Below, in pieces: positions 48,125 to 64,000 of a stretch of 64,000 bases of DNA. How positions within the stretch are numbered: the stretch's first letter is position 1; every line of letters begins with the position of its first letter. The stretch comes from Myxococcus xanthus (lineage in GTDB: Bacteria; Myxococcota; Myxococcia; Myxococcales; Myxococcaceae). The translations under genes were made by a program, and so were the position numbers. Below the pieces are notes generated by a model. It saw only the letters and a program-made list of their open reading frames with translations. It searched no databases and had not been told where the DNA came from. The DNA lies in NCBI RefSeq assembly GCF_900106535.1, contig NZ_FNOH01000007.1, forward strand, positions 186,001-250,000, given 5' to 3'.

Positions 48125-50878
48125 ATGAGCATGAGAGACAGCGGTAGAGGACGCGCGGGCACGGGCAATCGAGAGGGCGATGCCTTCGGCACCGGCCCTG
48201 GGTCGCGGCGCGACGACGCGCCACCCGTTCCCCAGGTGGGGCGCTACTTCCTCCTCAAGCGCCTGGGACAGGGCGGCATGGGCGTGGTGTACGCCGCCTA
48301 TGACCCGGACCTGGACCGCAAGGTGGCGCTCAAGCTGCTGCACGCGGACTCGCGGACGGACTCGGAGGAGGCCCGAGCCCGGCTGCTGCGCGAGGCGCAG
48401 GCCATGGCGCGCGTCTCGCACCCCAACGTCATCCCCATCTTCGACGTGGACGTGTGGGGTGACCGCGTCTTCCTGGCCATGGAGCTGGTGGACGGCGGCA
48501 CCCTGGCCTCGTGGGTGAAGGAGGGGCAGCGCTCCTGGCGAGAGATTCTGGAGTCCTTCCTCGCCGCGGGCCGGGGGCTCCAGGCCGCGCACGAAGCCGG
48601 GCTGGTGCACCGCGACTTCAAGCCCGCCAACGTGCTGGTGAACAAGGCAGGCCGCGTCTTCGTCACCGACTTCGGCCTGGCGCGGCCGGTGGGCACGCTG
48701 CCCAAGGAGGAGCCCCTCTCCGAGGACGCAGAGGCCCTCATTCCCTCCGAGCGGCGCATGCTGGACACGCCCCTCACCGAGGCGGGCCTCATCATCGGCA
48801 CGCCCAGCTACATGTCCCCGGAGCAGTTCCGTGGGGATGACCTGGACCCGCGCTCGGACCAGTTCAGCTTCTGCGTCGCGCTGTACTGGGCGCTCTACCG
48901 TCAGCGCCCCTTCGAGCCCGCCAAGATGGAGGCCTATGCCTCCTCGCGGAAGCCCCAGGCCCAGCCCGTGGTCGAGGCCACCGAGCCGCTGAACGTGACG
49001 GCGCCCCTGGAGCGAGAGGCCCCCAAGCCCCTGCCGCCGCCCGTCCTCATCCAGGAGCCGCCGCGCGACGTGAAGGTCCCCGCCTGGGTGAAGCAGGCGA
49101 TGATGCGCGGCCTGTCGCTGGACCCGGCCGCGCGCTTCGCGTCCATGGAGGCGCTGCTCGGCGCGCTGTCACAAGAGCACCGCTTCACGAAGCGCCGGCG
49201 CTGGGTGGCGGGCGCGAGCACCGTGGCGGCGGGCGTGGCCCTGGTGGGCGGCGTCCTCTACCAGCAGTCCCAGGTCTGCGCGGCCGCGGGCGCGCGCATG
49301 GATGACGTCTGGAGCCCGGCGGCGCGGCAACAGGTGGAGGCGGCCTTCCTCGCCACTGGCAAGCCCTTCGCGCAGGAGCTGGCCGGCAAGGTGTCCCAGG
49401 TGCTGGACGGCTACGCGAGCGCGTGGAAGCAGCAGAGCACCGAGGCCTGCGAAGCCACCCACGTCCACGGCGTGCAGACGGAGGAGCTGCTGACACGGCG
49501 AACGGTGTGTCTGGCGCGGCGGCACAAGGACGTGCGCGCCACGGTGGCGCTGCTGTCCAGCGCGGACGCGTCGCTGGTGGAGAAGTCGGTGGACGCGGTG
49601 CACGCCCTGCCCTCGCTGCACGAATGCGAGGACGAGGAGTCCCTGGCCGAACAACAGCGGCTGCCCTCGGACGCGGCGAAGCGCGCCGACATCGAGAAGC
49701 TGGAGGAGCAGCTCGCGGGCGTGAAGGCGCTGGTGGACGCGGGCCGCTATCCGAAAGCCCTGGAGACGGCGCGCGCGCTGGAGGCACCGGTGCTGGCCAC
49801 CGGCCACCTGCCGCTCACGGCCGAGCTGCGCTTCCACCTGGGCTGGCTCCAGGAACAGAACGGCCAGTCCCCCGAGGCGTCGAAGCAGCTCTTCCACGCC
49901 GTGCGCGACGCCGAGGCGGGGCGGGCGGACCGGCTGAAGGTCGCCATCCTCAACAAGCTGCTCTACGTGGAGGACGGCCAGCAGCACTTCACCCAGGCCT
50001 CGGACTGGGGCGAGCTGGCACACGCGACCCTCCAGCGTCTGGGCGGCGAGCCCGTGCTGGAAGCCGACGTGCGGATGAACCAGGCCAACCTCGCGGTGTC
50101 GCAGGAGCGCTTCGAGGATGCGCGCACGCTGCTGGAGCAGGCCAAGGCGCTCCAGGCCCACGCCCTGCCCCTGGGCCACCCCAAGCGCGCGCGAACCACC
50201 TTCCTGCTGGGCGGCGTGATGCTGGACCTGGGGAAGCCCGAGGAGGCGGTGAAGCTGCTGGAGGAAGCGCTGACACTGACGGAGGCCGCGGTGGGCCCCT
50301 GGCACCCGGACATGGCCCAGCGCCACGGCATGCTGTCGCTGACGCTGCGCGAGCTGAAGCAGGACGCCAAGGCCCTGGCGCACGCGCAGGCGGCGGCCCA
50401 GGTCCGCAAGGCCACGCAGGGCGAGACGAGCGTCCTGTACGCGGAGACCCTGGACGAGGTGGGCATGTGCCTGCACGCGATGAAGCGCTACGACGAGGCG
50501 CTGAAGGCCTACGAAGAGGCGCTGGTCATCAAGCGCGCGGCGCTACCCGCGGACGACGAGCGCCTCCAGTACTCCTATGACGGCGTGGGCCAGGCGTTGC
50601 TGGAGCTGGGCAAGGCGAACGAATCGGTGGCGCCGCTGCGGCAGGCCGTCTCCTTCGCGTCGGCCCCGCCCGACGTGCTGGCCGAGTCCGGCTTCGCCCT
50701 GGCTCGCGCCCTGTGGATGACGCAGCAGCCCCCGGCGGCCCGCGGGGAGGCGGCCCAGGCCCGGGCGCGCTTCACCGAGGCCGGCCTGGATGCGCGGGTG
50801 GCGGACGTGGACGCCTGGCTCTCGACGCTGCCGCCCGAGCCTGCCCCCCGGCCCGCGCGACGCAAGCCCCGGCGGTGA
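48125..50878 (+). CDS. Serine/threonine protein kinase with TM helix and TPR-rich C-terminus
   Basis: A 917-residue protein; ATG 48125 (MSMRDSG) is preferred to a GTG at 48104. The kinase domain spans about residues 40-345: glycine loop LGQGGMGVVY, VALKLL lysine, catalytic D164 in VHRDFKPANVL, DFG in VTDFGLARP, and GTPSYMSPEQF. After a basic stretch, one TM helix (about residues 360-382) leads to a periplasmic part with Cys residues and, from about 540, repeated TPR-like helix pairs such as LLEQAKALQAHALPLGHPKRA. This kinase-TM-TPR layout is common in Myxococcus. The downstream FHA activator is a plausible partner. Confidence 0.92.
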   Translation: MSMRDSGRGRAGTGNREGDAFGTGPGSRRDDAPPVPQVGRYFLLKRLGQGGMGVVYAAYDPDLDRKVALKLLHADSRTDSEEARARLLREAQAMARVSHPNVIPIFDVDVWGDRVFLAMELVDGGTLASWVKEGQRSWREILESFLAAGRGLQAAHEAGLVHRDFKPANVLVNKAGRVFVTDFGLARPVGTLPKEEPLSEDAEALIPSERRMLDTPLTEAGLIIGTPSYMSPEQFRGDDLDPRSDQFSFCVALYWALYRQRPFEPAKMEAYASSRKPQAQPVVEATEPLNVTAPLEREAPKPLPPPVLIQEPPRDVKVPAWVKQAMMRGLSLDPAARFASMEALLGALSQEHRFTKRRRWVAGASTVAAGVALVGGVLYQQSQVCAAAGARMDDVWSPAARQQVEAAFLATGKPFAQELAGKVSQVLDGYASAWKQQSTEACEATHVHGVQTEELLTRRTVCLARRHKDVRATVALLSSADASLVEKSVDAVHALPSLHECEDEESLAEQQRLPSDAAKRADIEKLEEQLAGVKALVDAGRYPKALETARALEAPVLATGHLPLTAELRFHLGWLQEQNGQSPEASKQLFHAVRDAEAGRADRLKVAILNKLLYVEDGQQHFTQASDWGELAHATLQRLGGEPVLEADVRMNQANLAVSQERFEDARTLLEQAKALQAHALPLGHPKRARTTFLLGGVMLDLGKPEEAVKLLEEALTLTEAAVGPWHPDMAQRHGMLSLTLRELKQDAKALAHAQAAAQVRKATQGETSVLYAETLDEVGMCLHAMKRYDEALKAYEEALVIKRAALPADDERLQYSYDGVGQALLELGKANESVAPLRQAVSFASAPPDVLAESGFALARALWMTQQPPAARGEAAQARARFTEAGLDARVADVDAWLSTLPPEPAPRPARRKPRR

Positions 50879-50936
50879 AGTCGCCACGGACCCAACGGGT
50901 GGCGGGCCGTGTCGGCCGTGTTAGCGTCCCGCTCCC

Positions 50937-52277
<1,341 letters not shown>

Positions 52278-52366
52278 GCGCTCCGAAAACAACTTTCTCC
52301 AGAGATTGGAGATAAGCTCGAATTGGAGCCATGTGGGCTCCGCCCATCCCCCAGGGAAGACCGCCC

Positions 52367-53137
52367 ATGCGAGTGAACCTCTTCCAGTCCATCGCGAGGC
52401 TCTCGGAGACCCGGACGCAGCAGAGCGTCCCGCCCGCAGCGTCCGGCCCCGCCCAGACCCAGGCCCCCCAGCAGCCGTCCGTCCCCGACGTGGTGGCCCG
52501 GTACCTCACCGACAGCTTCGAGGCCGCGGGCGCATCGGAAGTCATCAAGCAGACCAAGGACTCCAACTGCGGCGCCGCGGTGGCCACCCTGCTGTCGCGC
52601 ACCGCGGGCAAGGACTCCGCGTCGGCGGCGCAGAAGATGGACACGCTGGAGTCGCGCTTCACCGACGGCGGCGGCACGACCCCGGAGGAGCTCGCGAAGA
52701 TGCTCGCGCACGAGGGCCTGGAGGTGAAGAAGGGCACCTCGAACTTCGACATGCCTTCGGTGAACGAGGCGCTTGCCCGCGGTCAGCAAGTCGTCGTCCA
52801 ACTGGACACCAACCGGCTCGCCACGGGCGTGGACTCCAAGATCGCCGGTGACTCGCACTGGGTCGTCGTCGACGGCATGGACGACAAGGGCAACTACCAG
52901 GTGAAGGACACGAACACGGGCACCAAGTACTCCGTGTCCGGTCAGCAGATCGCCGACTCCGTGGGCTCCGCGTGGGAGCTGCACCAGGGTGGCGGCATGC
53001 TCGTCGTCGGCGACCCGCAGAGCGCCATGGACGAAGGCACGCTGGTGGAGAAAAGTTCCCTCCACACCAGCGTCCTGGGTAACACCGACGGCGGTGGCTC
53101 CCGGGCTCGCGGCAGCTTCGGCCGCGAGTCTTCCTGA
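52367..53137 (+). CDS. C39-like cysteine protease domain protein
   Basis: A 256-residue protein. ATG 52367 follows AGGGAAG with good spacing; an ATG at 52331 would add 12 residues. The papain-like/C39 triad is readable: C68 in DSNCGAAVA, H164 in GDSHWVVVDG and D181 in VKDTNTGTK. There is no signal peptide, and the N-terminus is Ser/Gln/Pro-rich. The next gene is convergent and encodes a lytic transglycosylase with a similar unstructured, signal-less start. Such proteins can be ABC-transporter leader peptidases or effectors of a contact-dependent secretion system; the absence of a Gly-Gly-peptide or ABC gene here makes the second more likely, but that is inference. Confidence 0.75.
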   Translation: MRVNLFQSIARLSETRTQQSVPPAASGPAQTQAPQQPSVPDVVARYLTDSFEAAGASEVIKQTKDSNCGAAVATLLSRTAGKDSASAAQKMDTLESRFTDGGGTTPEELAKMLAHEGLEVKKGTSNFDMPSVNEALARGQQVVVQLDTNRLATGVDSKIAGDSHWVVVDGMDDKGNYQVKDTNTGTKYSVSGQQIADSVGSAWELHQGGGMLVVGDPQSAMDEGTLVEKSSLHTSVLGNTDGGGSRARGSFGRESS

Positions 53138-53170
53138 GCCTCCCGCCGTCGTCCTACCTGCCAGCGTCGA

Positions 53171-54232
53171 CTACGCCGGCAGCGCGCCCTGACCGGAAGC
53201 CAGGGTGCTGGCGAACTGATTCACGTTGCGCACGTAGTCCGCACTGCCCAGGCCCGCGGGAATCGCATGCGGGTTGCTCTTGTCCACGCCGTTCGGACCG
53301 GAGTTGTAGGCGCGCAGGGCCAGGTCCCAGTTCCCGAACTGCGCCTTCATGTCCTTCATGTAGCAGGCGCCCGCGAGGATGTTCGTCTCCGGGTCAGACA
53401 GGTTCTTGCCCTGCAACTCGGGGTACTTGTCCTGCAGCCCCTTGAAGGTGTTGGGGTTCACCTGCATCAACCCCGTGTCCGTCATGCCGTTGCCGCCGTT
53501 GGTGGACGAGGCGTCCACCTTGCCGCGCGACTCCGCCCACACCTGCGCGGCCAGCATCTCCACCGGCACGCCCGTCTTGGCCGCCGCGGACTCGAGCGCC
53601 GGACGCAGCTTCTCCAGCGCCGGAGGCAGGTTGCCGCCCAGGCTCGCGCCGCCGGCACCCGTGCTCGCGCCCACCGAGGGCGCCGCGCCGATGCCGCCCA
53701 CCGGCGCACCCTCGATGTCACTCACCGGAGCGGGCGCGGGCGCGGGGCCACCAGCGGCAGGCGCCGACGTGAGGCCCTCCACCGGCTCATTCATGAACGG
53801 AGACGGGCCCTGGGCGCTGGGGTTCAGCTCCACGGGAGGACGGCCACCGCGGGCCGACGCAGGCGAGAAGGAGCTGTCCAAGAAGCACTTGGACGAGGAC
53901 GCGCCCTGGGCGCCTTGAGCACCGGAAATGCCCTGGCCGTACGAAGCGCCCTGCGCGCCACCCGCCGCGCCGCCCGCCTGCATGGCCTGCTGGAGCTGGG
54001 CCAGCGTGTTGATAATCGCCAGGGCCCCCTCGAGCAGCTTGCCCAGGGACTCGGCCTTGCCGCCGCCCAGGTCGAAGCCATCCTGCTGCATCCCGATGCG
54101 CCCCAGCGACGGCTTCTGGGCCGAGGCACCCGAGGGACCAGACAGCGACGCGGAAGGCCGGGAGACGGAGACATCCTGGGCCGGGGAGCGGACGGCGGAG
54201 GAGGCGGAGCCGCTGAGAGGAGAGAGGCGCAT
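53171..54232 (-). CDS. SLT-type lytic transglycosylase, no signal peptide
   Basis: A 353-residue protein. The start at ATG 54232 (MRLSPLSGS) has GAAGGAAC upstream; an extension to 54280 was rejected. The first 200 residues are Ser/Gly/Ala/Pro-rich and disordered. Residues about 205-350 form a soluble lytic transglycosylase domain: catalytic E234 in WAESRG, then GLMQVNPNTF, ILAGACYMKDM and LRAYNSGPNGV. It would cut peptidoglycan between MurNAc and GlcNAc. No classical signal peptide is present, unlike housekeeping transglycosylases. It is convergent with the C39-like protease gene, 33 bases apart. Confidence 0.85.
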   Translation of the reverse strand: MRLSPLSGSASSAVRSPAQDVSVSRPSASLSGPSGASAQKPSLGRIGMQQDGFDLGGGKAESLGKLLEGALAIINTLAQLQQAMQAGGAAGGAQGASYGQGISGAQGAQGASSSKCFLDSSFSPASARGGRPPVELNPSAQGPSPFMNEPVEGLTSAPAAGGPAPAPAPVSDIEGAPVGGIGAAPSVGASTGAGGASLGGNLPPALEKLRPALESAAAKTGVPVEMLAAQVWAESRGKVDASSTNGGNGMTDTGLMQVNPNTFKGLQDKYPELQGKNLSDPETNILAGACYMKDMKAQFGNWDLALRAYNSGPNGVDKSNPHAIPAGLGSADYVRNVNQFASTLASGQGALPA

Positions 54233-54506
54233 GGGGAAGTTCCTTCGGGGAGGGTTGGAGGGCTGCTGTAGGCGACCCACGCACCAGTAGCAGCAGGTGT
54301 GCCAACCGTCGGGAGCCCTCCTTTCCCCGCCAAACCCCTGATTTCACTTGAGTCGCTGGAGCGCCCGCGCCCCGTGAGGCCCTGGCCCCTGGTGACTGCC
54401 GCCGTCAGGGGGCGGTGGTCGCAGTCACCAGGCTCCGTCCGGCAGCCGTGCCGACATGCCGGCGCGCTAACGTAGCGGCCTTCTCGTCGTGGAGGGGATG
54501 CGGGAC

Positions 54507-56171
54507 ATGAGCCAGAACGGAAGCAGTGCCGAGAGCGCACGCGTGCGCTGGCTGGTGGTGGGTGCCTTCTCCCCGTCCCCCTCGGGCCGGCGCTTCCCGC
54601 TCACGGTGAACACCTTCGGGGATGAGCTCACGCGCGCCGCCAGCGGGCTCCGCGTCACCGTGGCGGACCGACTGGGCGCGGGTGACACGCGCACCGTCGA
54701 GCTGTCCTTCGACCGGCTGCGCGCCTTCAGCTACGCGGACGTCATCACCCGCGTCCCGGAGCTGCGCGCCTTGCAGCACCTGCACGAATCGCTGTCCACG
54801 TCCGATCCGCTGCGCACGCTGACGCCCGAGGAGGCCGCCACGCGCGTGGCCACCGTCACCGGCCCAGGCCGCCTTCCGGACGCGGTGGCCGAGGCCCTGC
54901 GCGCGGCCTCCACGCCGCCCGCTCCCACGGCGCCGACCGCGCCCACCGAATCCGGCGAGGACCTGGTGGAGACGCTCCTCAGTCGCGCCGACGCGAGCAC
55001 GCCCGCCGCCGCGTCCCGGGCGGTGGATGCCTTCCTGCGCGCCATCAATCCACGCGTGCCCGCCACGCCCGCGCCCGTCGTCACGCCGGAGGCCGCCACC
55101 CGGCAGACGGCCCGGGACCTGGTGGAGCAAGCGCTGCTCCTCACGGCGAAGGACCTGCTCGGCGCCGAGCCCGTGGCCCACCTGGAGTCCGCGTGGCGCG
55201 GCCTCAAGTGGCTGCTGGACCAGGTGCCCGCGTCCTCGGGCATCTCCGTGGAGGTGCTGGACGTGGCGCGCGCCGGGCTGCTGGACGCCGTGCAGGGCGC
55301 GCTAGGCGCCGAGCCCTTCGAGCGCCCCGACGCCGTCTTCATCATGGATGCCACCGACGACGTCGCCCTCCTGGGCAAGCTCGCGGCGATGGGCGAGCGC
55401 GCGCAGCTCCCGGTGGTGGCCGCCGTGTCCGCGCCGCTCCTGGGCGTGGCGCAGGCGGAGCTGGCCGTGGCGCTGGAGGAGGAGCGCGAGCATGTCCCCG
55501 AGGCCTGGACGGAGCTGCGCCAGGACGAGTCCGCGCGCTGGCTGTGCGCCGTCATCAACCGCGCGGTGGTGGCCAGCGAGGGTCGCGGCGCGGCCCGGCG
55601 CGTGAGCTTCACCAGCCCCGCGCTGGCGGTGGCGGCGATGCTGGCGGCCAGCTTCCGGGACACCAGCGCCTTCGCGCGCATCATGGGCCAGCAGGGCGGC
55701 CTGAAGGCGCCCGCCATGTGGGAGCTGCCCACCGGCCGCGATACCGGGCTGAGCATTCCCACCGAGCACTTCCTCCCCATCCGGGCGCAGGCGCGGCTGG
55801 AGGAGCGCGGCATCCTGGGCCTGGGCAGCGGGCGCAACGCGGACGCGGTGCTGCTGGCCGCCGCGCCCATGGTGTTCGGCGGAGGCTACGCGGTGCCGCT
55901 GCCCGCGCAGTTGCTCACCGGGCGCATCGTCCGCTTCGCCACCTGGGTGCGGGACCAGTTGCCCGCGGGCACCGGCGGCGACGACGTGGACGCCATCTTC
56001 TCGCAGGCCGCGGAGGTGTTCCTCTTCCGGGGCGCCACGGAGAACGGACAACTGCGCGGCCAGTTGGTGGCCACGGACAACGGCCGCGGGGTGCACGTCA
56101 CCGCCACCGTCCGCCCGGAGCACGCGGGCACGCGCTTCCAGCTCGCCTTCACCCTGCCACTGCGCGGCTGA
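54507..56171 (+). CDS. Type VI sheath-like protein, apparent TssB-TssC fusion
   Basis: A 554-residue protein; the ATG at 54507 (MSQNGSSAE) is preferred because GGAGGGG at 54491-54497 is well spaced for it. Residues about 15-90 have the TssB pattern (RWLVVGAFSPSPSGRRFPLTVN, then VELSFDRLRAFSYADVITRVPELRAL). A linker of about 100 Ala/Pro residues follows, then a TssC-like part from about 195 (LESAWRGLKWLLDQVP, VFIMDATDDVALLGKL, VAAVSAPLLGVAQAELA). The C-terminal half contains VAAMLAASFRDTSAFARIMGQ, also like sheath proteins. No other T6SS gene is nearby, so this may be an orphan or phage-tail-like sheath. Homology is by eye. Confidence 0.6.
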   Translation: MSQNGSSAESARVRWLVVGAFSPSPSGRRFPLTVNTFGDELTRAASGLRVTVADRLGAGDTRTVELSFDRLRAFSYADVITRVPELRALQHLHESLSTSDPLRTLTPEEAATRVATVTGPGRLPDAVAEALRAASTPPAPTAPTAPTESGEDLVETLLSRADASTPAAASRAVDAFLRAINPRVPATPAPVVTPEAATRQTARDLVEQALLLTAKDLLGAEPVAHLESAWRGLKWLLDQVPASSGISVEVLDVARAGLLDAVQGALGAEPFERPDAVFIMDATDDVALLGKLAAMGERAQLPVVAAVSAPLLGVAQAELAVALEEEREHVPEAWTELRQDESARWLCAVINRAVVASEGRGAARRVSFTSPALAVAAMLAASFRDTSAFARIMGQQGGLKAPAMWELPTGRDTGLSIPTEHFLPIRAQARLEERGILGLGSGRNADAVLLAAAPMVFGGGYAVPLPAQLLTGRIVRFATWVRDQLPAGTGGDDVDAIFSQAAEVFLFRGATENGQLRGQLVATDNGRGVHVTATVRPEHAGTRFQLAFTLPLRG

Positions 56172-56173
56172 AG

Positions 56174-56704
56174 TCAGTCCTTCTTGAAGCGCAGCACGTA
56201 GCCTTCGAGGAACACCGTGGGCAGGTCCAGGTCGCCCACGGGTTCGCGCACGAAGCCGCGCCGCTGGTACATGCGCCCCACGCCCTCCGCGCCCCTGCGG
56301 ACGTGGAGGCACACGGCGTCCACGCCCCACTCGCGCGCCCGGGCCTCGGCGGCGTCCAGGAGGGGCTGGGCCAGCCCGGTGCCATGGTGACTCACGGCGG
56401 TGGCCAGGCCGCGCAGGTCGGCGGCGTTGGGCAGCCAGGCCTCGGAGCCGGGGGCACCGGGCTTGAAGAGCGCGACGGTGCCCACCACCTGACCGTCCAA
56501 CTCGGCCACCAGCACGGTGGCCGCCTTGCGCCGGGACGCGACGTCCCGCAGCTCGCGCTTGCGCTCGTCGCCATAGACGACTTCCGGGAGCTTCTTCGCG
56601 TACTGGGTGAGGAAGGCATCCACCAACAACTCCCCCACCACCGCGTCATCCTCGGGCCGCGCCTCGCGAACGAGGGCCCGCTCTACGACATGCCGGGTGT
56701 CCAT
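56174..56704 (-). CDS. GNAT-family N-acetyltransferase
   Basis: A 176-residue protein. The GNAT core is visible: VREARPEDDAVVGELL at the N-terminus, VLVAELDGQVVGTVAL (beta strand 4), then LATAVSHHGTGLAQPLL as the acetyl-CoA-binding motif A (a variant of Q/RxxGxG/A), and VCLHVRRGAEGVGRMYQRRGF at the C-terminus. Substrate unknown. The stop lies two bases from the end of the sheath-like gene, so the two are convergent with no room for a terminator. Confidence 0.88.
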   Translation of the reverse strand: MDTRHVVERALVREARPEDDAVVGELLVDAFLTQYAKKLPEVVYGDERKRELRDVASRRKAATVLVAELDGQVVGTVALFKPGAPGSEAWLPNAADLRGLATAVSHHGTGLAQPLLDAAEARAREWGVDAVCLHVRRGAEGVGRMYQRRGFVREPVGDLDLPTVFLEGYVLRFKKD

Positions 56705-56796
56705 GGCCCGGAACTCTACGACCGGCCGCGCGTCCGCGCGATTTCACCCCGGCCAGCCCTGCTCATGTCTGCGTGCAGGCGGACACTGCGTCGGCG

Positions 56797-58128
56797 TCAC
56801 CACTTGCCCAGGGTGCCAATCAGGTTGCCCGTCTTCGCGTCGAAGACATCCAGCCACACCCAATGCGGAACGTAGACGCGCCCACCGTGCAGCTTGATGT
56901 CGGACGCCCCCGAGCCGCTCTTGGAGTTGGGAATAGGGACGTCCCAACTGACGCTCCCCGTCCGCATGTCTCTGCGAATGAGCTGCGCTCCCCCCTCCTT
57001 CAACTCGTAGACCATGACGAGTGCGTCCTCGGAGAAGGCGAGGACCTCCACCACGCGCTCCTTCACCATCTTGGGGTCCATGTCGGCGACGTTGCCATGC
57101 CACAACGGGACCTTCTGGCCCTGCTGGAACACCGCCGCCATGGGCACGCGGCTCCCAGGACTCCGCTCACCCAGGACGACGTTCAGGTCATTCAGCTTGT
57201 AGACATGCTGAGCCGAAAACCCGGGAACGTCCGGCAGGTCGCGCGGGCGTTCACAGGGGATGGGACTCCTCCTCACCAACTGGGGGGGACACATCCGGGG
57301 GCCCCATTTGAACGGCGCGCAGGAGGGGGGCGGCTCGATGGCGGGCCGAGCGGCCGCCGTTTTCGTGTTGAGCAGGAGGTTCTGCCCATCCGAAACATCG
57401 ACCCAGACGGACTCGGTGTCGCCCCGTGGGATGCAGAGGTTGCGAGGCTTGTCCGAGAGCGCCACCCGTCCGAGCTGCTTGCCCGTCTGCGGGTCGAGGA
57501 TGCTCACCGCGTCAGGCGAACTCATCACCACGCGCCCGCCCTGATGAACGAAGTGCACCGTGCCGCTGAGCTCCGAGATTGACCCCTCGAGGCCCGTCTC
57601 CCAGAGCAATCCGAGCGACTTCCCATCGAACGCGGCGGCCATCGAGCGGATGTCCGTCCCACCGGTGTTGGGCATGAGCCGACGGATGCGCCCGACGAAG
57701 TCGTCCGTCCCGTCCCCGTTGAGGTCCACCACCAGGGGAACGCTCGTCGTGTCCCATTGAAACGTCGATGCCTTCTCCACCCCGGGTGGCCGCGCCACGA
57801 CGATGGGAGCCGGCCCCGGCCCGCCCGGGATGGGACCACCGGTGGACTCGGAGGCAGTCGTCCAGGTGATGAAGCCCACGACCAGCGCGATGAGTGCCAG
57901 AACGACGCCGCCGATGGCCGCCAGTTGAATCACCCCGACCGGGATGCCCCCACGCTCCTCGGATTCTGGTACGGGCGGGGCCTCATAGGAGGGGAGCGGT
58001 GCCTTCTCGCCCCGCGTGTCGATGGAGGCATTGCAGTAACCGCAGGTGTACAGCTCCTGTCCCTGTGTGAGGGCGAAGGGCGCGTTACAACGAGGGCAAC
58101 GAGGCGAGGTCGGGCGTGCGCGAGCCAT
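56797..58128 (-). CDS. Zinc-ribbon membrane protein with beta-propeller-like periplasmic domain
   Basis: A 443-residue protein. A zinc ribbon is at residues about 10-38 (CPRCNAPFALTQGQ and TCGYCNAS). A TM helix follows (about residues 68-92, GVIQLAAIGGVVLALIALVVG), then a long domain with Trp and beta-strand-like repeats (PLVVDLNGDGTDDFVG, FDGKSLGLLWETGL, ILDPQTGKQLGRVAL), like PQQ-type propeller blades. The ribbon would face the cytoplasm and the propeller the periplasm. I do not recognise a named family. It is followed on the same strand by the GNAT gene about 90 bases away. Confidence 0.7.
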   Translation of the reverse strand: MARARPTSPRCPRCNAPFALTQGQELYTCGYCNASIDTRGEKAPLPSYEAPPVPESEERGGIPVGVIQLAAIGGVVLALIALVVGFITWTTASESTGGPIPGGPGPAPIVVARPPGVEKASTFQWDTTSVPLVVDLNGDGTDDFVGRIRRLMPNTGGTDIRSMAAAFDGKSLGLLWETGLEGSISELSGTVHFVHQGGRVVMSSPDAVSILDPQTGKQLGRVALSDKPRNLCIPRGDTESVWVDVSDGQNLLLNTKTAAARPAIEPPPSCAPFKWGPRMCPPQLVRRSPIPCERPRDLPDVPGFSAQHVYKLNDLNVVLGERSPGSRVPMAAVFQQGQKVPLWHGNVADMDPKMVKERVVEVLAFSEDALVMVYELKEGGAQLIRRDMRTGSVSWDVPIPNSKSGSGASDIKLHGGRVYVPHWVWLDVFDAKTGNLIGTLGKW

Positions 58129-58179
58129 GGCGCCTCTTTACCATCCCCTCCCCATACACTCCGAGCGTGGAACCACGCC

Positions 58180-59427
58180 TCAGAGAAAACTGCCGATGAA
58201 CCACGGCAGCCGCTCGCCCAGCTTCTGCAAGAGCCCGCGCCGCTTCCACCCGCTCCAGTGAATCTCCCGCGAGTGGCGTAAATCCTTCTCAAAGGATGCG
58301 GCGAGCTGCGCCGCCAGCGCCACGTCCTCCACCACCACCGAGCACTCCTCCAACGTCGTCAACGCCAGCGGGTCCATGTTGGTGGAGCCCACGACGGACA
58401 GGGAGTCATCCACGAGCATCGTCTTGGAATGCATCATCGACAGCTCGTACTCCCAGATGCGCACGCCGCCCTCCAGCAAGCGCGCATAGGACGCCCGCTG
58501 CGCCGCGTTCACGGGCCCGACGTCATGGTGCCGCCCGGGCACCAGCACCCGCACGTCCACGCCTTGCTTCACCTTCTCCAGCAGCATGTCACTGATGGCG
58601 TCGGAGGGAATGAAGTAGGAGTTCGCAATCCAGAGCCGCTCCTGCGCCGCCGCGATGGTGAGCAGCGTCATCCGCCGCGCGTCCGACAGGAAGCGGTTGT
58701 CCGTGCTGGCCACGAAGCCGGCGCGCGCATCCCCCGCGTAGCGAGGCTCCGGGAAGTCCGTCGCCGGCAGGAAGTCTCCACCCGCCTCCTGCCAGTTCTG
58801 CGCGAAGGCGACCTGCATCTCTCGCACGGCCGGGCCCTCCACGCGGATGTTCATGTCGCGCCAGGACTCCGCGCTCTGCGCATTCCCCATCCAGCTCTTC
58901 CAGATGCCCCAGCCGCCGGTGATGCCCACCTCGCCATCCCTCACCACCATCTTCCGGTGGTTCCGCGCCCTCAGGCGAACCGCGTCCAAGGCCACGAAGT
59001 CACCTTGGATGGGCCGGAAGTAGCGCGCGTCACAGCCGCTGGCCGCCAGCGCGGGAATCACCGCCTCGAAGTTGACGCTGCCCAATGGGTCCACGAGCAC
59101 GCGGCACGCCACCCCGGGCCGCCGCGCCGCCAGCGCCCGCACCAGCCGGTCCGACGGCTCACCGGGGCGCCAGATGTAGCTGATGATGTGGATGCTGGTG
59201 CGCGCGGCGAGAATCTCCTCCTCGATGGCGTCGAAGATGAAGCCGTTCTCCACCAACTCCACGCGGTGCCCTGGCACCAGCGCCACGCCCAATGACTGGA
59301 AGAACGCGAGCGAGCGCGCCTCCGGACTGGTCCCCGGCAACGCGCGCAGGCGCAGGTCATGCCGGTGATTGGGAGCGGGACACCCGGCGGCAATCAACAC
59401 CACGGGCACGAGCCAGGCGAGCTTCAC
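58180..59427 (-). CDS. Phospholipase D / cardiolipin synthase-like lipoprotein
   Basis: A 415-residue protein. A lipobox (IAAGCPAP) follows a hydrophobic N-terminus, so it appears to be a lipoprotein. Two HKD motifs are present: RARNHRKMVVRDGEVGITGG and MHSKTMLVDDSLSVVGSTNMD, both with H-x-K-x4-D. These are the hallmarks of the PLD superfamily; cardiolipin synthases (Cls) share this two-domain form. Predicted reaction: phosphatidyl transfer or phospholipid hydrolysis. The lipid anchor is unusual for Cls, which is normally inserted by TM helices, so a hydrolytic or envelope role is possible. Confidence 0.85.
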   Translation of the reverse strand: MKLAWLVPVVLIAAGCPAPNHRHDLRLRALPGTSPEARSLAFFQSLGVALVPGHRVELVENGFIFDAIEEEILAARTSIHIISYIWRPGEPSDRLVRALAARRPGVACRVLVDPLGSVNFEAVIPALAASGCDARYFRPIQGDFVALDAVRLRARNHRKMVVRDGEVGITGGWGIWKSWMGNAQSAESWRDMNIRVEGPAVREMQVAFAQNWQEAGGDFLPATDFPEPRYAGDARAGFVASTDNRFLSDARRMTLLTIAAAQERLWIANSYFIPSDAISDMLLEKVKQGVDVRVLVPGRHHDVGPVNAAQRASYARLLEGGVRIWEYELSMMHSKTMLVDDSLSVVGSTNMDPLALTTLEECSVVVEDVALAAQLAASFEKDLRHSREIHWSGWKRRGLLQKLGERLPWFIGSFL

Positions 59428-59573
59428 CGCCGGAAACTAAGCGCCCATGGCCCGCGGCGCACCTGCCGATGTCTCACGCAAGACACCCCGAGACGCGCGG
59501 CGGGCACCTCTCCACCGTGAGGGTGGAAGCCCCCGCCCCGCGTGCGCACCTTCGGGACACACCGCGTGTCGCC

Positions 59574-60302
59574 ATGCTCAACGTGCCCTCACACCGACGT
59601 CCCATCACCGCGTGCACACTGCTGCTGGGCTGCCTGCTGTCCGCCGCGAGTCACGCGGCGGCCACGGACGCACCGCTGCGCGACACGCCACCTCCTGAAA
59701 CACGTTCCAGGTACCTGGACACGCCCGCCGCCCCGTCCCCGGAAAGAGCAGCCGTGCCCACGTACATCGAACCGGAGGACGTCCCGCTGCCCAAGGGCGC
59801 ATGGGTGGCGCACGGCGGGCTCTCGCTGCTTCCCGTAGCCGGCGTCTGGGGCGCCAGCCGCGTGGGCGGGGACACCCGCGTGGGTGCCACCGCGGCGGAG
59901 ACGGCGGCGGGAATGCTCCTGGGCGCCATCCCCTCGCGGCTCCTCTTCTTCCGTCCCGCGGCGCCCAGCCCGGGGCGGTGGATGGAATTGGAGACCGTGG
60001 CCTTCGGCGGCGGCTTCGTGCTGACACCACCGCTGACGGCGCTCGGAACGTGGGGCCTGGGCGAGCTCGCCTTTGGCGAGAGTCACCATCCGGACCGCGC
60101 CTACCTGGGCGCGCTCGGCGGCGCGGCCCTGGGCACGCTGCTGGGCGTCATCGTCCACGAAGCCCTGGTGAAGCTGTCCAAGCCCAGCGCCCGCTTGAAG
60201 AGCGGCCGTCAGCTCGTCGGCCTGGGATTCATCGGCGTGGGCGCGACGTTGGGCTATCAATGGGCAGGCGGCGGACCTCGCCCAGACGGACACACGCGAT
60301 AG
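59574..60302 (+). CDS. Exported hypothetical protein with hydrophobic segments
   Basis: A 242-residue protein. ATG 59574 (MLNVPSHRR) is chosen because the signal peptide (about residues 10-28, ending near SHAAAT) begins there; an ORF start about 280 bases earlier is an extension. The mature N-terminus is Thr/Pro-rich and is followed by four hydrophobic stretches (LSLLPVAGVWGAS, AAGMLLGAIPSRLLFF, AFGGGFVLTPPLTALG, LGALGGAALGTLLGVIV). Gly-rich and amphipathic patterns could fit a small outer-membrane or integral protein. I do not recognise it. Confidence 0.6.
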   Translation: MLNVPSHRRPITACTLLLGCLLSAASHAAATDAPLRDTPPPETRSRYLDTPAAPSPERAAVPTYIEPEDVPLPKGAWVAHGGLSLLPVAGVWGASRVGGDTRVGATAAETAAGMLLGAIPSRLLFFRPAAPSPGRWMELETVAFGGGFVLTPPLTALGTWGLGELAFGESHHPDRAYLGALGGAALGTLLGVIVHEALVKLSKPSARLKSGRQLVGLGFIGVGATLGYQWAGGGPRPDGHTR

Positions 60303-60457
60303 TTCTGCTGCGTCTGTTTTCACACGCACGCGTTGTGCACCACCCAAGTCCTTGCAGTCTCAGACGCAGTGCGTGTGACACGCGGGGCATTGTGATTGTC
60401 AGACCCGGGCTCCACACTCCGCCGCGCTGTACGGACACCGCTGTTGGAGAGACCGCA

Positions 60458-60628
60458 ATGACTGCTCGCAAGCACCTCCGAATCGCCGTCGTCCTCGCCG
60501 CCGCCGCCGCCGTGCTGGGCCTGGGAATCACCATGACGCCGGCCACGGCCGTCGCCGATGACTGCCAGCCCCCCTGCTACAAGCACCCCATCACCGGTGA
60601 GTGGATTTGCGGCACCCCGTGTCCGTAA
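60458..60628 (+). CDS. 56-residue Cys-rich exported peptide
   Basis: A small gene with its own ribosome-binding site (GGAGAG about 8 bases upstream). The product has a signal peptide (residues 1-32, ending near PATAVA) and a predicted mature part of about 23 residues, DDCQPPCYKHPITGEWICGT plus PCP, with four Cys and several Pro. A termination hairpin follows 28 bases after the stop. The Cys pattern suggests two disulfides, as in small bacteriocins, toxins or metal-binding peptides. Two MacB/FtsX-type permease genes lie just downstream on the opposite strand. No function can be assigned. It may be overlooked in routine annotation. Confidence 0.7.
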   Translation: MTARKHLRIAVVLAAAAAVLGLGITMTPATAVADDCQPPCYKHPITGEWICGTPCP

Positions 60629-60656
60629 TCCCCGGACACACGTGCTGAAACACCTG

Positions 60657-60688
60657 GGGCCTCTTCCGCACCGCGCGGAGGAGGCCCC
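60657..60688 (+). terminator. Rho-independent-like terminator after the Cys-rich peptide gene
   Basis: GGGGCCTCTTCCGC (60657-60670) pairs with GCGGAGGAGGCCCC (60675-60688) with one G-U pair and a four-base loop; GTTTCATT follows. The stop codon of the permease gene on the other strand is at 60726, so it could serve both directions. Confidence 0.7.
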
Positions 60689-60725
60689 GTTTCATTCCCA
60701 GCCACCCTGCGGCACCTGCGTGGGG

Positions 60726-61946
60726 TCAGTCCGTCCGCATGGCCTCCACGGGGTCCAGCTTCGCGGCGCGCGCGGCCGGGTAGATGCCGAACAGCAGGCC
60801 CACGCCGCTGCTCATGGCCAGCGACAGCATCACCGCCCAGGCCGGCACCTGCGCGGGAAGCCCCACCATCCACTTCGCCAGTTGCGCCAGGCCCATGCCC
60901 AGGCCCACGCCCAACGCGCCCCCCACCAGCGACAGCACCACCGCCTCGATGGCGAACTGCGCGAGGATGCGGCGCCTCTTCGCGCCCAGCGCCTTGCGGA
61001 TGCCAATCTCCCGGGTGCGCTCCGTCACCGCCACCAGCATGATGTTCAGGATGCCGATGCCGCCCACCAGCAGCGACAGCATGCACACGCCGAAGCTGGC
61101 CGCAGAAATCACCTTCGAGATGTTGTTGAACATCTCCGTGGCGCTCTCGTTGGAGAACACGAAGAAGTCATCCTCCTCCAACGGCTTCAGGTTGTGGCGC
61201 CGCCGCATCAGCAGCGTCACCTCGTCCTGCGCGCGCTGGAGCACCTCCGCCGACTGGGCCTGGACGCTCACCCGGTAGTTGCGCACCCCGAACAGCGCCT
61301 TGTAGACGGACAGCGGCATCATCACCTGGTTGTCCTGGCTGCCTCCACCCATGAAGCTGCCGCGGCGCTTGAGCGTGCCAATCACCTGGAAGCTGCGCCC
61401 CAGGATGCGGATGTTCTGCCCCAAGGGCTGCACGCCCGGGAACAACGTGTCCGCCAGGTCCTGGCCAATCACCGCCACGCGGCGGCCATCCAGGTACTCC
61501 GCGTCCGTGAAGGGCCGCCCGAACTCCACCACCACCGAGTTCGTCTGGAAGTACTCCGGCGTGCCGGCCCAGATGACCACATTGGGACGCGACTCGCGCT
61601 GCTGCGTGGACACCTTCTGTCCACCCTTGGAGTCCTCCGCCGCCGCCAGCAGCACCGACGGCTGCAGCCGGATGGCCTCCAAGTCGCCCTCGTTCAGCCG
61701 GGGCCGCCGCGCCAGCTCCGCCAGGGACAGGTTGCCGCCGAAGGGCAGCCGCTGCACCTGGAAGCAGTCGGAGCCCAGCTCGGACATGCTCTCGTTCACC
61801 TGGATGCGCAGGCCCTCGATGAGCCCCATCATCGACACCACCGTGGTGGCGCCAATGACGATGCCCAGCAGCGTCAGGAAGGAGCGCAGCAGGTTGGAAC
61901 GGAACGTTCCGAACGCCAGCCGCAGGGTGTCCCAGATTGCCATCAT
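60726..61946 (-). CDS. MacB/FtsX-type ABC transporter permease (second of pair)
   Basis: A 406-residue protein. An N-terminal TM helix (about 20-42, SFLTLLGIVIGATTVVSMM) is followed by a MacB_PCD periplasmic domain (around residues 50-260), then an FtsX core: FGVCMLSLLVGGIGILNIMLV, ERTREIGIRKALGAKRRRIL, and two further helices, ending at PVEAMRTD. No ATPase is encoded beside it in the window. MacB-type permeases work in efflux or in lipoprotein/peptide export. It starts 19 bases after the first permease ends, so both are in one transcript. Confidence 0.9.
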   Translation of the reverse strand: MMAIWDTLRLAFGTFRSNLLRSFLTLLGIVIGATTVVSMMGLIEGLRIQVNESMSELGSDCFQVQRLPFGGNLSLAELARRPRLNEGDLEAIRLQPSVLLAAAEDSKGGQKVSTQQRESRPNVVIWAGTPEYFQTNSVVVEFGRPFTDAEYLDGRRVAVIGQDLADTLFPGVQPLGQNIRILGRSFQVIGTLKRRGSFMGGGSQDNQVMMPLSVYKALFGVRNYRVSVQAQSAEVLQRAQDEVTLLMRRRHNLKPLEEDDFFVFSNESATEMFNNISKVISAASFGVCMLSLLVGGIGILNIMLVAVTERTREIGIRKALGAKRRRILAQFAIEAVVLSLVGGALGVGLGMGLAQLAKWMVGLPAQVPAWAVMLSLAMSSGVGLLFGIYPAARAAKLDPVEAMRTD

Positions 61947-61965
61947 CGCCGCCGTCTCCCGTCCG

Positions 61966-63192
61966 TCACTCGTGGCGAAGCGCTTCCACCGGGTCCAGGT
62001 TCGCCGCCCGCGCCGCCGGCCAGATGCCGAACAGCAGCCCCACCATCGCCGCGAACCCCACGCCCGCCACCACCGTCAGCGGCTCCACCGCCGCCGCCAG
62101 CGGCGTAATCAAGGACACGATGCGCGCCAGCCCCAGGCCCACCACGGTCCCCAGGGTGCCGCCCAGGGCGGACACGCAGGAGGCCTCCATCAGGAACTGG
62201 AGGATGATGGTGCGCTTGCGGGCCCCCAGCGCCCGCCGGACGCCAATCTCCCGCGTCCGCTCGCGCACCGACACCAGCATGATGTTCATGATGCCGATGC
62301 CGCCCACCAACAGCGTGATGAGGCCCACGCCCATGGCCGCGCCATAGAGCGCCCCGGTGAGCTGCGCGTACATGCTGGCCAGCTGGTCCGGCCGGTTGAT
62401 GGCGAAGTCGTCCGGCAGCCCCGGCGGCGTGTTGCGCTCCCGGCGGAGCACCGCGGTGAGCTTGTCCACCACCGCTGGCGCATGCTCCGGCGACGTGAGG
62501 GCCACCGCGATGTTGGGCGAGCGCTTCTTGCCGAAGTGCGCCAGGAAGGTGCGGGAGGGCACCACCACCACCAGGTCCTGGTTCTCTCCCAGGATGGTGC
62601 CCTTGGCCTCCAGGGTTCCCACCACGCGGAAGGGCTTGCCCTCGAAGAGGATGCGCTGCCCCACCGGGTTCACTCCGGGGAAGAGCGAGCGCACGAGCTC
62701 CGCGCCGATGACGGCCACCTGCGCCCGGTTGTCCACGTCCGCGTGGGTGAGGAAGCGGCCCCGCTCCAGGGCGAACGAGCCCACCGTGGCGTAGTCCGGC
62801 GTGGTGCCCACCAGCAGCACCGAGCCGATTTTGCGGTCCAGGAAGCGGCCCTCCACGCGCTCGAAGAAGAGCGGCGCCGCGGCCAGCACGTGCTCGGACG
62901 CGTTGAGGATGGGCGGCACCAGGTCCGCACTCAGGTCCTTGCGGTTGCGGTACGACCACCAGTCGCCGTTGAGCGTCCAGGGGAACTTCGAGATTTGGAG
63001 CGTGTTGGCGCCAATGCTCGAAAGCTGATCCTCGAAGGAGCGGTTGATGCCCTGGATGATGCCGACAATGGCCAGCAGCGTGCACACGCCCACGCCAATG
63101 CCCACCGTCGTCAGCACGGTCCGCAGGCGGTTGGAACGGAGCGAGAACAGCGCGATGCGCGCCCCCTCCCACACATCGACCCGGATGCTCAC
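61966..63192 (-). CDS. MacB/FtsX-type ABC transporter permease (first of pair)
   Basis: A 408-residue protein with a GTG start at 63192 preceded by GGAGAG. It is a close paralogue of the next permease: TM helix at about 22-46 (VLTTVGIGVGVCTLLAIVGII), MacB_PCD domain (GANTLQISKFPW), then the FtsX block MGVGLITLLVGGIGIMNIMLVSVRERTREIGVRRALGARKR-like and terminal ANLDPVEALRHE. A heterodimeric pair without an adjacent ATPase suggests it borrows an ATPase encoded elsewhere, or one outside the window. The 290 bases before the start hold no gene that I could support. Confidence 0.9.
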   Translation of the reverse strand: MSIRVDVWEGARIALFSLRSNRLRTVLTTVGIGVGVCTLLAIVGIIQGINRSFEDQLSSIGANTLQISKFPWTLNGDWWSYRNRKDLSADLVPPILNASEHVLAAAPLFFERVEGRFLDRKIGSVLLVGTTPDYATVGSFALERGRFLTHADVDNRAQVAVIGAELVRSLFPGVNPVGQRILFEGKPFRVVGTLEAKGTILGENQDLVVVVPSRTFLAHFGKKRSPNIAVALTSPEHAPAVVDKLTAVLRRERNTPPGLPDDFAINRPDQLASMYAQLTGALYGAAMGVGLITLLVGGIGIMNIMLVSVRERTREIGVRRALGARKRTIILQFLMEASCVSALGGTLGTVVGLGLARIVSLITPLAAAVEPLTVVAGVGFAAMVGLLFGIWPAARAANLDPVEALRHE

Positions 63193-63481
63193 GTCAGATT
63201 CTCTCCGCTGCGTTGCACGTCGCGCTGGTTGGTACGGGCCCCGGAACGGGTGATTGCACGCGACATTCCTTCGGTGCAAATCCAGTGTGCTGGAAATCCG
63301 TCTGGGACCCCGCGCGAGGCCGTCCTCGGCCCGCCAGTGTAGGTGTCCCACTCCCAGGGCGTGCCGGCCCCCACACCCGGCATGCATCCGTGTGGCCGCC
63401 CCTGGCCTCCACGCGAGGTGGGAACGGAAGACCGCTGGGACACCGCGCCAGGACGGCGGCACGGTGTCCCGGGCCTCATGA

Positions 63482-64000
63482 TTACGGGACCACGGTCACG
63501 GAATCGCCCTGGATGCGGACGTTCAGGATGGCCTCGTTGGGGAGCACGTCCGCTTCCTCGATGATGTCCTGCTCATCCACGCCCACGCGCAGGGAGTACG
63601 TGCCGTCCGTCAGGTCGGTGATGTCAATCCACTGGCAGGGGATGTCGGCGACGTAGATGTCCGCCCAGCCGGCGGAGATGCTCATTCGGTCCAGCGGGAA
63701 GTGGAAGGGCGCCGCGTCATCGCACTGGCGCTGGTAGTCGACCAGATAGAAGCCCTGCTTGCGGCCCTCCACGACCTCGTTGCCCTGCGCGTCCCGCAGC
63801 ACGTACTGGGCGAAGTTGGTGAGGTGTTCGTGGCCGTGGCACTCGTCCCAGACGTAGAGGTCCGGCCGCTCGTCCATGTTGGGCACCGAGGCCGCCGCCG
63901 CGCCCAGGTTCTGGATGGAGGTGCTGAAGCGCAGCAGGCGCCGCTCACCGGGCGCGGGCACGCAGCCCTCCAACATCTCACAGGAGTCCGCGGCGAAGGT
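63482..64000 (-). CDS. Lysyl oxidase-like protein, 3' part (5' end outside window)
   Basis: The last 172 codons of a gene; the frame is open to the window edge (TFAADSCEMLEGC), so the true start lies beyond. The copper-binding talon of lysyl oxidases is recognisable: WDECHGHEHLTNFAQYVL, with the C-H-x-H-x-H pattern. Then come DAQGNEVVEGRKQGFYLVDYQ and CQWIDITDLTDGTYSLRVGVD. Lysyl oxidases make aldehydes from lysine in secreted proteins, with a Tyr-Lys cofactor. Bacterial members occur in myxobacteria and are probably exported. Context: same strand as, and about 290 bases upstream of, the permease pair. Confidence 0.82.
   Translation of the reverse strand, partial: TFAADSCEMLEGCVPAPGERRLLRFSTSIQNLGAAAASVPNMDERPDLYVWDECHGHEHLTNFAQYVLRDAQGNEVVEGRKQGFYLVDYQRQCDDAAPFHFPLDRMSISAGWADIYVADIPCQWIDITDLTDGTYSLRVGVDEQDIIEEADVLPNEAILNVRIQGDSVTVVP

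Follow-up and report, generated by a model that had tools for sequence, protein, structure and literature searches.

A small peptide gene and its neighbours

The window, by which we mean the whole stretch of 64,000 nucleotides that was analysed, contains a small gene at positions 60458-60628 on the + strand, running from ATG to TAA and encoding the 56-residue product MTARKHLRIAVVLAAAAAVLGLGITMTPATAVADDCQPPCYKHPITGEWICGTPCP. Upstream lies a gene (59574-60302, + strand) whose 242-residue product begins with a signal-like sequence and matches nothing in Pfam at E<=0.01. Downstream, two permease genes on the - strand, assigned to MacB_PCD and FtsX by family match, occupy 60726-61946 and 61966-63462 and converge on the peptide gene. 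The peptide reading frame is intact, and a ribosome-binding site, GGAGAG (60446-60451, + strand), lies six bases before the ATG, in agreement with the initial annotation. GGAG, AGGA, GAGG, AAGG or GGGA is found upstream of 52/52 genes of subfamily A and 13/13 of subfamily B, which are defined below.

In the source genome the frame through the peptide gene is open for 309 codons, and the list of open reading frames also includes one of 275 residues that shares its C-terminal end with the 56-residue peptide. In relatives, in-frame stops occur as near as 15 bases (subfamily A) or 3 bases (subfamily B) upstream of the ATG. Because these stops fall just before the ATG, the 56-residue unit is the conserved gene, and they rule out the 275-residue frame as a true gene. 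Two relatives (L008 and L009) lack whole alanine codons and keep the frame. The interval 60458-60628 on the + strand is a genuine conserved coding gene, one that is easily overlooked because of its small size.

Distribution and subfamilies

Genera are given here by label, g1 being Myxococcus plus Pyxidicoccus and g8 Archangium. When 61 genomes were searched with the single sequence, 25 of the 27 from g1 held a relative at E<=1e-9, and a genome of another genus held one at 4e-8; the match in its own genome had an E value of 9e-35. A profile search gave matches at E<=0.05 in 58 of 147 genomes of the class. Fifty-five of these were at E<=2e-15 and belonged to five genera of one family, and the remaining three were at chance level. 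The same 55 were the only strong matches in a phylum set of 195 genomes. By genus, among the genomes listed, they comprised 25/27 in g1, 6/6 in g8, 16/16 in g31, 4/4 in g32 and 4/7 in g33. Conservation in close relatives, on which the initial annotation had made its proposal depend, is thus evident in 55 of the 147 class genomes. Since no copy of the peptide was found in two of the 27 g1 genomes (G009 and G022) or in three of the seven listed g33 genomes, the gene is dispensable.

A scan of named genomes returned 11 loci, all in Myxococcus, Pyxidicoccus or Archangium except for one record labelled Comamonas. This record (BNCN01000009.1, locus L062, Comamonas sp. KCTC 72670) carries the Myxococcus locus described here, with 86% peptide identity, and is probably a mislabelled myxobacterial genome. 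A match on a Streptomyces plasmid (E 0.5) was rejected as chance, as it has no leader-like stretch before it and its frame continues past the match; a phage match (E 9) was likewise attributed to chance.

The family so defined contains 65 genes, 52 in subfamily A (the gene in the window included) and 13 in subfamily B. Weak profile matches (E 0.004-0.05) were left out as chance; two of these, the weak reading frames L103 and L104, were read and dropped. The search for homologues with conserved cysteine spacing, suggested with the initial annotation, showed the pattern C-x3-C-x10-C-x3-C-P in 52/52 members of subfamily A. Subfamily B has exactly two cysteines, as C-x10-C-P, in 13/13. All 52 A sequences and 12/13 B sequences contain the motif P-[IVF]-[TS]-G. 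At position 43, where the window has His, 21 of the 52 A sequences have Asn or Asp. Of the 27 g1 genomes, 24 carry subfamily A, which also extends to four other genera, and three carry B; one of these three (G019) has only the two-cysteine type. Net charge was taken as K+R minus D+E over the sequence that begins two residues ahead of the first cysteine in A and six ahead of it in B. It was 0 in 32, -1 in 10 and -2 in 10 of the 52 A sequences, and 0 in 12 and -1 in one of the 13 B sequences.

No curated family matched at E<=0.001, the best E values being 0.015 for Pfam (33 members searched), 0.0091 for NCBIfam (25) and 0.015 for PHROGs (33). In open-access main text, no paper was found with the strings KHPITG, RHPITG, KNPITG or KDPITG. 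Searches of the same kind of text for Myxococcus small secreted peptides, ribosome profiling, disulfide peptides, defensins and the secretome listed matches in which no title or start of an abstract describes the family.

Putative flanking expression signals

A promoter-like element, TTGTGA and CACACT separated by 17 bases, is located at 60390..60418 (+ strand). Of 24 g1 loci, 21 have the pattern TTG[TC][CG][AT]-N17-NANNNT 66-69 bases ahead of the start codon, compared with a mean of 0.11 and a maximum of 2/24 in 1000 mononucleotide shuffles, a control that flatters the element because the pattern was derived from these loci, which are themselves related. Recurrence of the putative element upstream of the gene is support for a promoter and not proof; a scan of the peptide locus with the sigma-70 consensus found none. 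The region between this element and the ribosome-binding site holds a further motif, recognised by eye, GTACGGACACC (60429..60439, + strand). Many of the upstream sequences have it some 20-30 bases ahead of the start codon, possibly near the 5′ end of the mRNA. A similar GTACnGACnCA precedes several subfamily B genes, again by eye.

Downstream, an intrinsic terminator-like hairpin of 15 pairs followed by TTTCATT was found at 60655-60689 (+ strand). This was the one such site after the gene, against a shuffle mean of 0.1, which bears out the earlier suggestion that the gene has its own terminator. Terminator-like sites follow 43/52 A genes compared with 18/52 after shuffling, and 4/13 B genes compared with 5/13.

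Predicted export signal and mature peptide

Residues 1-33 (60458..60556, + strand) were read by eye as a Sec-type signal peptide. It begins with basic residues, continues through a hydrophobic segment and ends in AVA, just before DD; cleavage would follow AVA. AlphaFold2 (AF2) was run twice, with a 12-row alignment and with the single sequence, and both models place helix across much of residues 1-33 and none after residue 25, at low overall confidence. A pattern search of the 65 members found neither a lipobox ([LVI][ASTVI][GAS]C) nor a twin-arginine motif in any of them, ruling out a lipoprotein and, by pattern, Tat export. A lipoprotein-signal model of Pfam touched 2 of 33 members, with a best E value of 0.015.

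The predicted mature peptide, residues 34-56 (60557..60625, + strand; DDCQPPCYKHPITGEWICGTPCP), contains four cysteines, as the initial annotation had it, and one histidine. Its PITG sequence was considered as a sortase-like LPXTG signal and rejected on inspection, as it lies between cysteines and lacks a hydrophobic tail. The leader is probably cut at the AxA site and the 23-residue product oxidised outside the cytoplasm. The description of a small, exported, Cys-rich peptide is supported by the signal and by the cysteine spacing fixed among relatives, and the peptide is probably exported.

Selection on the leader and the mature part was compared by the Nei-Gojobori method. The ratio dN/dS for the mature part was 0.29, 0.33 and 0.35 in three overlapping Myxococcus sets of 9, 11 and 24 sequences, the last containing the other two and four more, 0.31 in 16 g31 sequences and 0.26 in the 13 B sequences; with so few sites these values are rough. 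The leader gave 0.58, 0.43, 0.62, 1.38 and 0.32 in the same order, and the whole gene 0.44, 0.38, 0.49, 0.99 and 0.30, the value of 0.99 in g31 being due to its leader. Purifying selection acts on the mature part, which is more constrained than the leader. In g1, g8 and g32, 14 A genes share one mature type, CQPPC...CGTPCP, although their leaders differ widely, and therefore selection acts on the exported part.

Four loci in other genera (L084, L091, L095 and L098) combine a mature peptide nearly as in the window with unrelated leaders. Such combinations may reflect leader replacement, convergence or a transfer that involved the mature part.

Predicted hairpin fold

Both AF2 runs assigned strands to residues 40-42 and 49-51, on either side of a PITG turn. 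The hairpin core, CYKHPITGEWIC (residues 40-51; 60575..60610, + strand), was predicted with mean pLDDT values of 86 and 91 over residues 41-50 in the two runs, within models of low overall confidence (mean pLDDT 67-68, pTM 0.26-0.28). The predicted register sets C40 opposite C51 and C36 opposite C55, the outer cysteine pair lying outside the assigned strands. A fold search in the PDB gave a best E value of 5.5, which is uninformative for so small a model, and a sequence search of the PDB found nothing at E<=0.001 (best 0.49).

Covariation was examined in 29 distinct A cores (55 pairs). The cross-strand pairs 39-52, 41-50, 38-53 and 43-48 ranked 3, 9, 11 and 13. All four have a position sum of 91, which is the register of both cysteine pairs, and their mean rank of 9 has a chance of 0.005 for four random pairs, relatedness being ignored. 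The neighbouring register, with sum 92, has two pairs at mean rank 7 and does slightly better, and the two strongest covarying pairs, 37-39 and 41-43, are i,i+2 neighbours within one strand. Asp43 is accompanied by Lys48 in 5/5 sequences and Lys48 is present in 0/47 sequences lacking Asp43, a pattern that may reflect as few as two events. Together with the models, these data argue that the mature peptide would fold as a beta-hairpin around P-I-T-G, with C40-C51 as the inner bridge and C36-C55 as the outer one, and we consider the hairpin itself well supported. Subfamily B would retain the inner bridge alone, between Pro-rich arms.

Genomic neighbourhood

The 242-residue upstream gene is absent near 5 of 21 g1 loci, and no counterpart of any of the seven window genes tested was found beside the peptide gene beyond g1 and g31. 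Twenty neighbouring ORFs at 11 loci from other genera or subfamily B, 11 of them matched to Pfam and nine matchless, some possibly miscalled, gave no match to an exporter or immunity family. The neighbours were a GntR-aminotransferase and a glutamine amidotransferase in g8, CstA and a family 30 glycosidase in g33, and an amidase, an L-PSP protein and an aminotransferase near B genes. The changing neighbourhood and the promoter-like element suggest that the peptide gene is an independent unit.

Further features of the region were noted. The permeases form a MacB-like tandem (60726-63462, - strand), and no MacA or ATPase gene was recognised within 12 kb beyond it, judged from a rough gene call and first residues. 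A gene at 63482-65485 on the - strand, with its start outside the window, encodes a 667-residue exported-looking protein whose in-window part matches lysyl oxidase (PF01186, E 6.4e-28). The 560-residue product of 54489-56171 (+ strand) has matches to VipA (E 1.7e-6) and to VipB (E 6.8e-17), as a fusion of the two type VI sheath proteins would. In its vicinity are genes for an FHA-sigma54 activator (50937-52277) and a TPR protein (50054-50878); the genes searched in 50054-63976 gave no match to other type VI families. Alpha/beta hydrolases of differing sizes are found near three of six B loci searched (L040, L072 and L079), which may be chance.

Possible function

We propose a stand-alone gene for a Sec-exported hairpin mini-peptide that acts as a self-directed ligand of the envelope or the extracellular space, structural or signalling in nature and not a weapon, a reading that in our judgement has about an even chance of being correct. 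The near-invariant turn face (K42, P44, I45, T46 and G47) might conceivably bind a conserved partner in the envelope or extracellular matrix of the producing cell. The two observations that argue for a self-directed target are conservation and the lack of cationic charge, and the target and role named here are guesses.

A small protease inhibitor, in which a constrained hairpin loop acts on secreted proteases of the cell itself, seems unlikely. The P-I-T-G loop is conserved, sunflower trypsin inhibitor 1 is a single-bridge hairpin inhibitor, and myxobacteria secrete many proteases. The sequence and fold searches described above returned no relative (at E<=0.001 for sequence), however, and no protease was recurrent among the neighbouring ORFs searched; the alpha/beta hydrolases lie near three of six B loci.

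The initial annotation had suggested a bacteriocin-like peptide. The producers are predatory bacteria, and an antimicrobial hairpin with a tachyplesin- or protegrin-like fold could serve in predation or competition. In the portion of PMC13001179 available, beta-hairpin antimicrobial peptides are described as disulfide-closed single hairpins of 11-25 residues with cysteine pairs at least three residues apart, and with charges of 1 to 8. The mature peptide would agree in size and cysteines, with 23 residues after the predicted cleavage, two cysteine pairs and a predicted hairpin. Its charge, however, is -2 to 0 in 65/65 members, which sets it outside the cationic class. In addition, the mature part is conserved by purifying selection and not diversifying, and none of the 20 neighbouring ORFs searched at 11 loci matched an exporter or immunity family, nine of them being matchless. 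A bacteriocin is therefore quite improbable. For the signalling role that the initial annotation offered as an alternative, the findings speak neither for nor against.

The peptide could also be exported or sensed by the adjacent permeases. The pair adjoins the gene here, as had been pointed out, and in all g1 (21/21) and g31 (16/16) genomes with enough flank the second permease gene is no more than 2.6 kb downstream. (Of 24 g1 genomes with an A gene, 21 were tabulated; the others are that of the window, which has the pair, and two more.) Heat-stable enterotoxin II is a disulfide peptide. In the part of PMC7403778 available, MacAB is reported to handle this toxin in E. coli, which offers a precedent. 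Against this, the second permease gene is near 0/12 A loci of g8, g32 and g33 and 0/13 B loci (about 4-10 kb on each side), and three g1 genomes (G019, G009 and G022) retain a copy of it (80-82% identity) that lacks an A peptide within 1.5 kb. The genes are moreover convergent, and the rough call beyond the tandem showed no MacA or ATPase partner. Its recurrence in only two genera and its convergent orientation make the pair a poor guide to function, and a link to the permeases is very unlikely. It is extremely unlikely that the four cysteines and the histidine make the peptide a metal-binding or redox mini-protein, as subfamily B has only two cysteines (13/13), position 43 is so often Asn or Asp, and the pairs are CXXXC and not CXXC.

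The self-directed ligand might be extended to an undescribed family of uncharged-to-acidic, disulfide-stapled hairpins serving as a conserved intercellular or envelope ligand in Myxococcus-type bacteria, with the one-bridge sister B directed at the same receptor or a related one; this wider proposal is doubtful. Myxobacteria are models for bacterial social life, and to our knowledge few of their extracellular peptide factors have been described. A gene so tiny, with its four-cysteine form in 24/27 g1 genomes and four more genera and a hairpin core that hardly varies, would be simple to delete, synthesise and assay.

Comparison with known peptides

Bacterial cis-defensins and the myxobacterial cysteine-stabilised helix peptides (PMC5116183 and PMC11561630, as far as the available portions describe them) are also small cysteine peptides of myxobacteria, the type of Zhu (2007) having four cysteines. 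The cis-defensin pattern given in the available part of PMC11561630, CX(2,18)CX3CX(2,12)CX(4,17)CXC, is matched by 0/65 members. The family differs from these peptides in having no CXC in 65/65 and in a predicted hairpin instead of a helix, the mature part lacking helix in both low-confidence models; membership of the cis-defensin or CS-alpha-beta class was rejected.

Tachyplesin, protegrin and gomesin resemble the peptide in their shortness, in a single hairpin (here predicted) and in two nested cysteine pairs. Tachyplesin has CX3C flanks and four residues between its inner cysteines. The peptide differs from the three in being non-cationic and in having 10 residues between the inner cysteines, and homology was not found. 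The likeness to cationic antimicrobial peptides and to cis-defensins is one of size and, for the former, also of predicted shape.

The peptide may be a natural minimal beta-hairpin, useful for work on folding and peptide design. In this respect it can be set beside chignolin, a designed 10-residue hairpin (GYDPETGTWG; available part of PMC6435801), whose D-P-E-T-G-T has the P, T and G in common with H-P-I-T-G-E and whose register would match that of the peptide. Chignolin differs in being designed and in having no cysteine, and the resemblance is a likeness of turns and not of descent.
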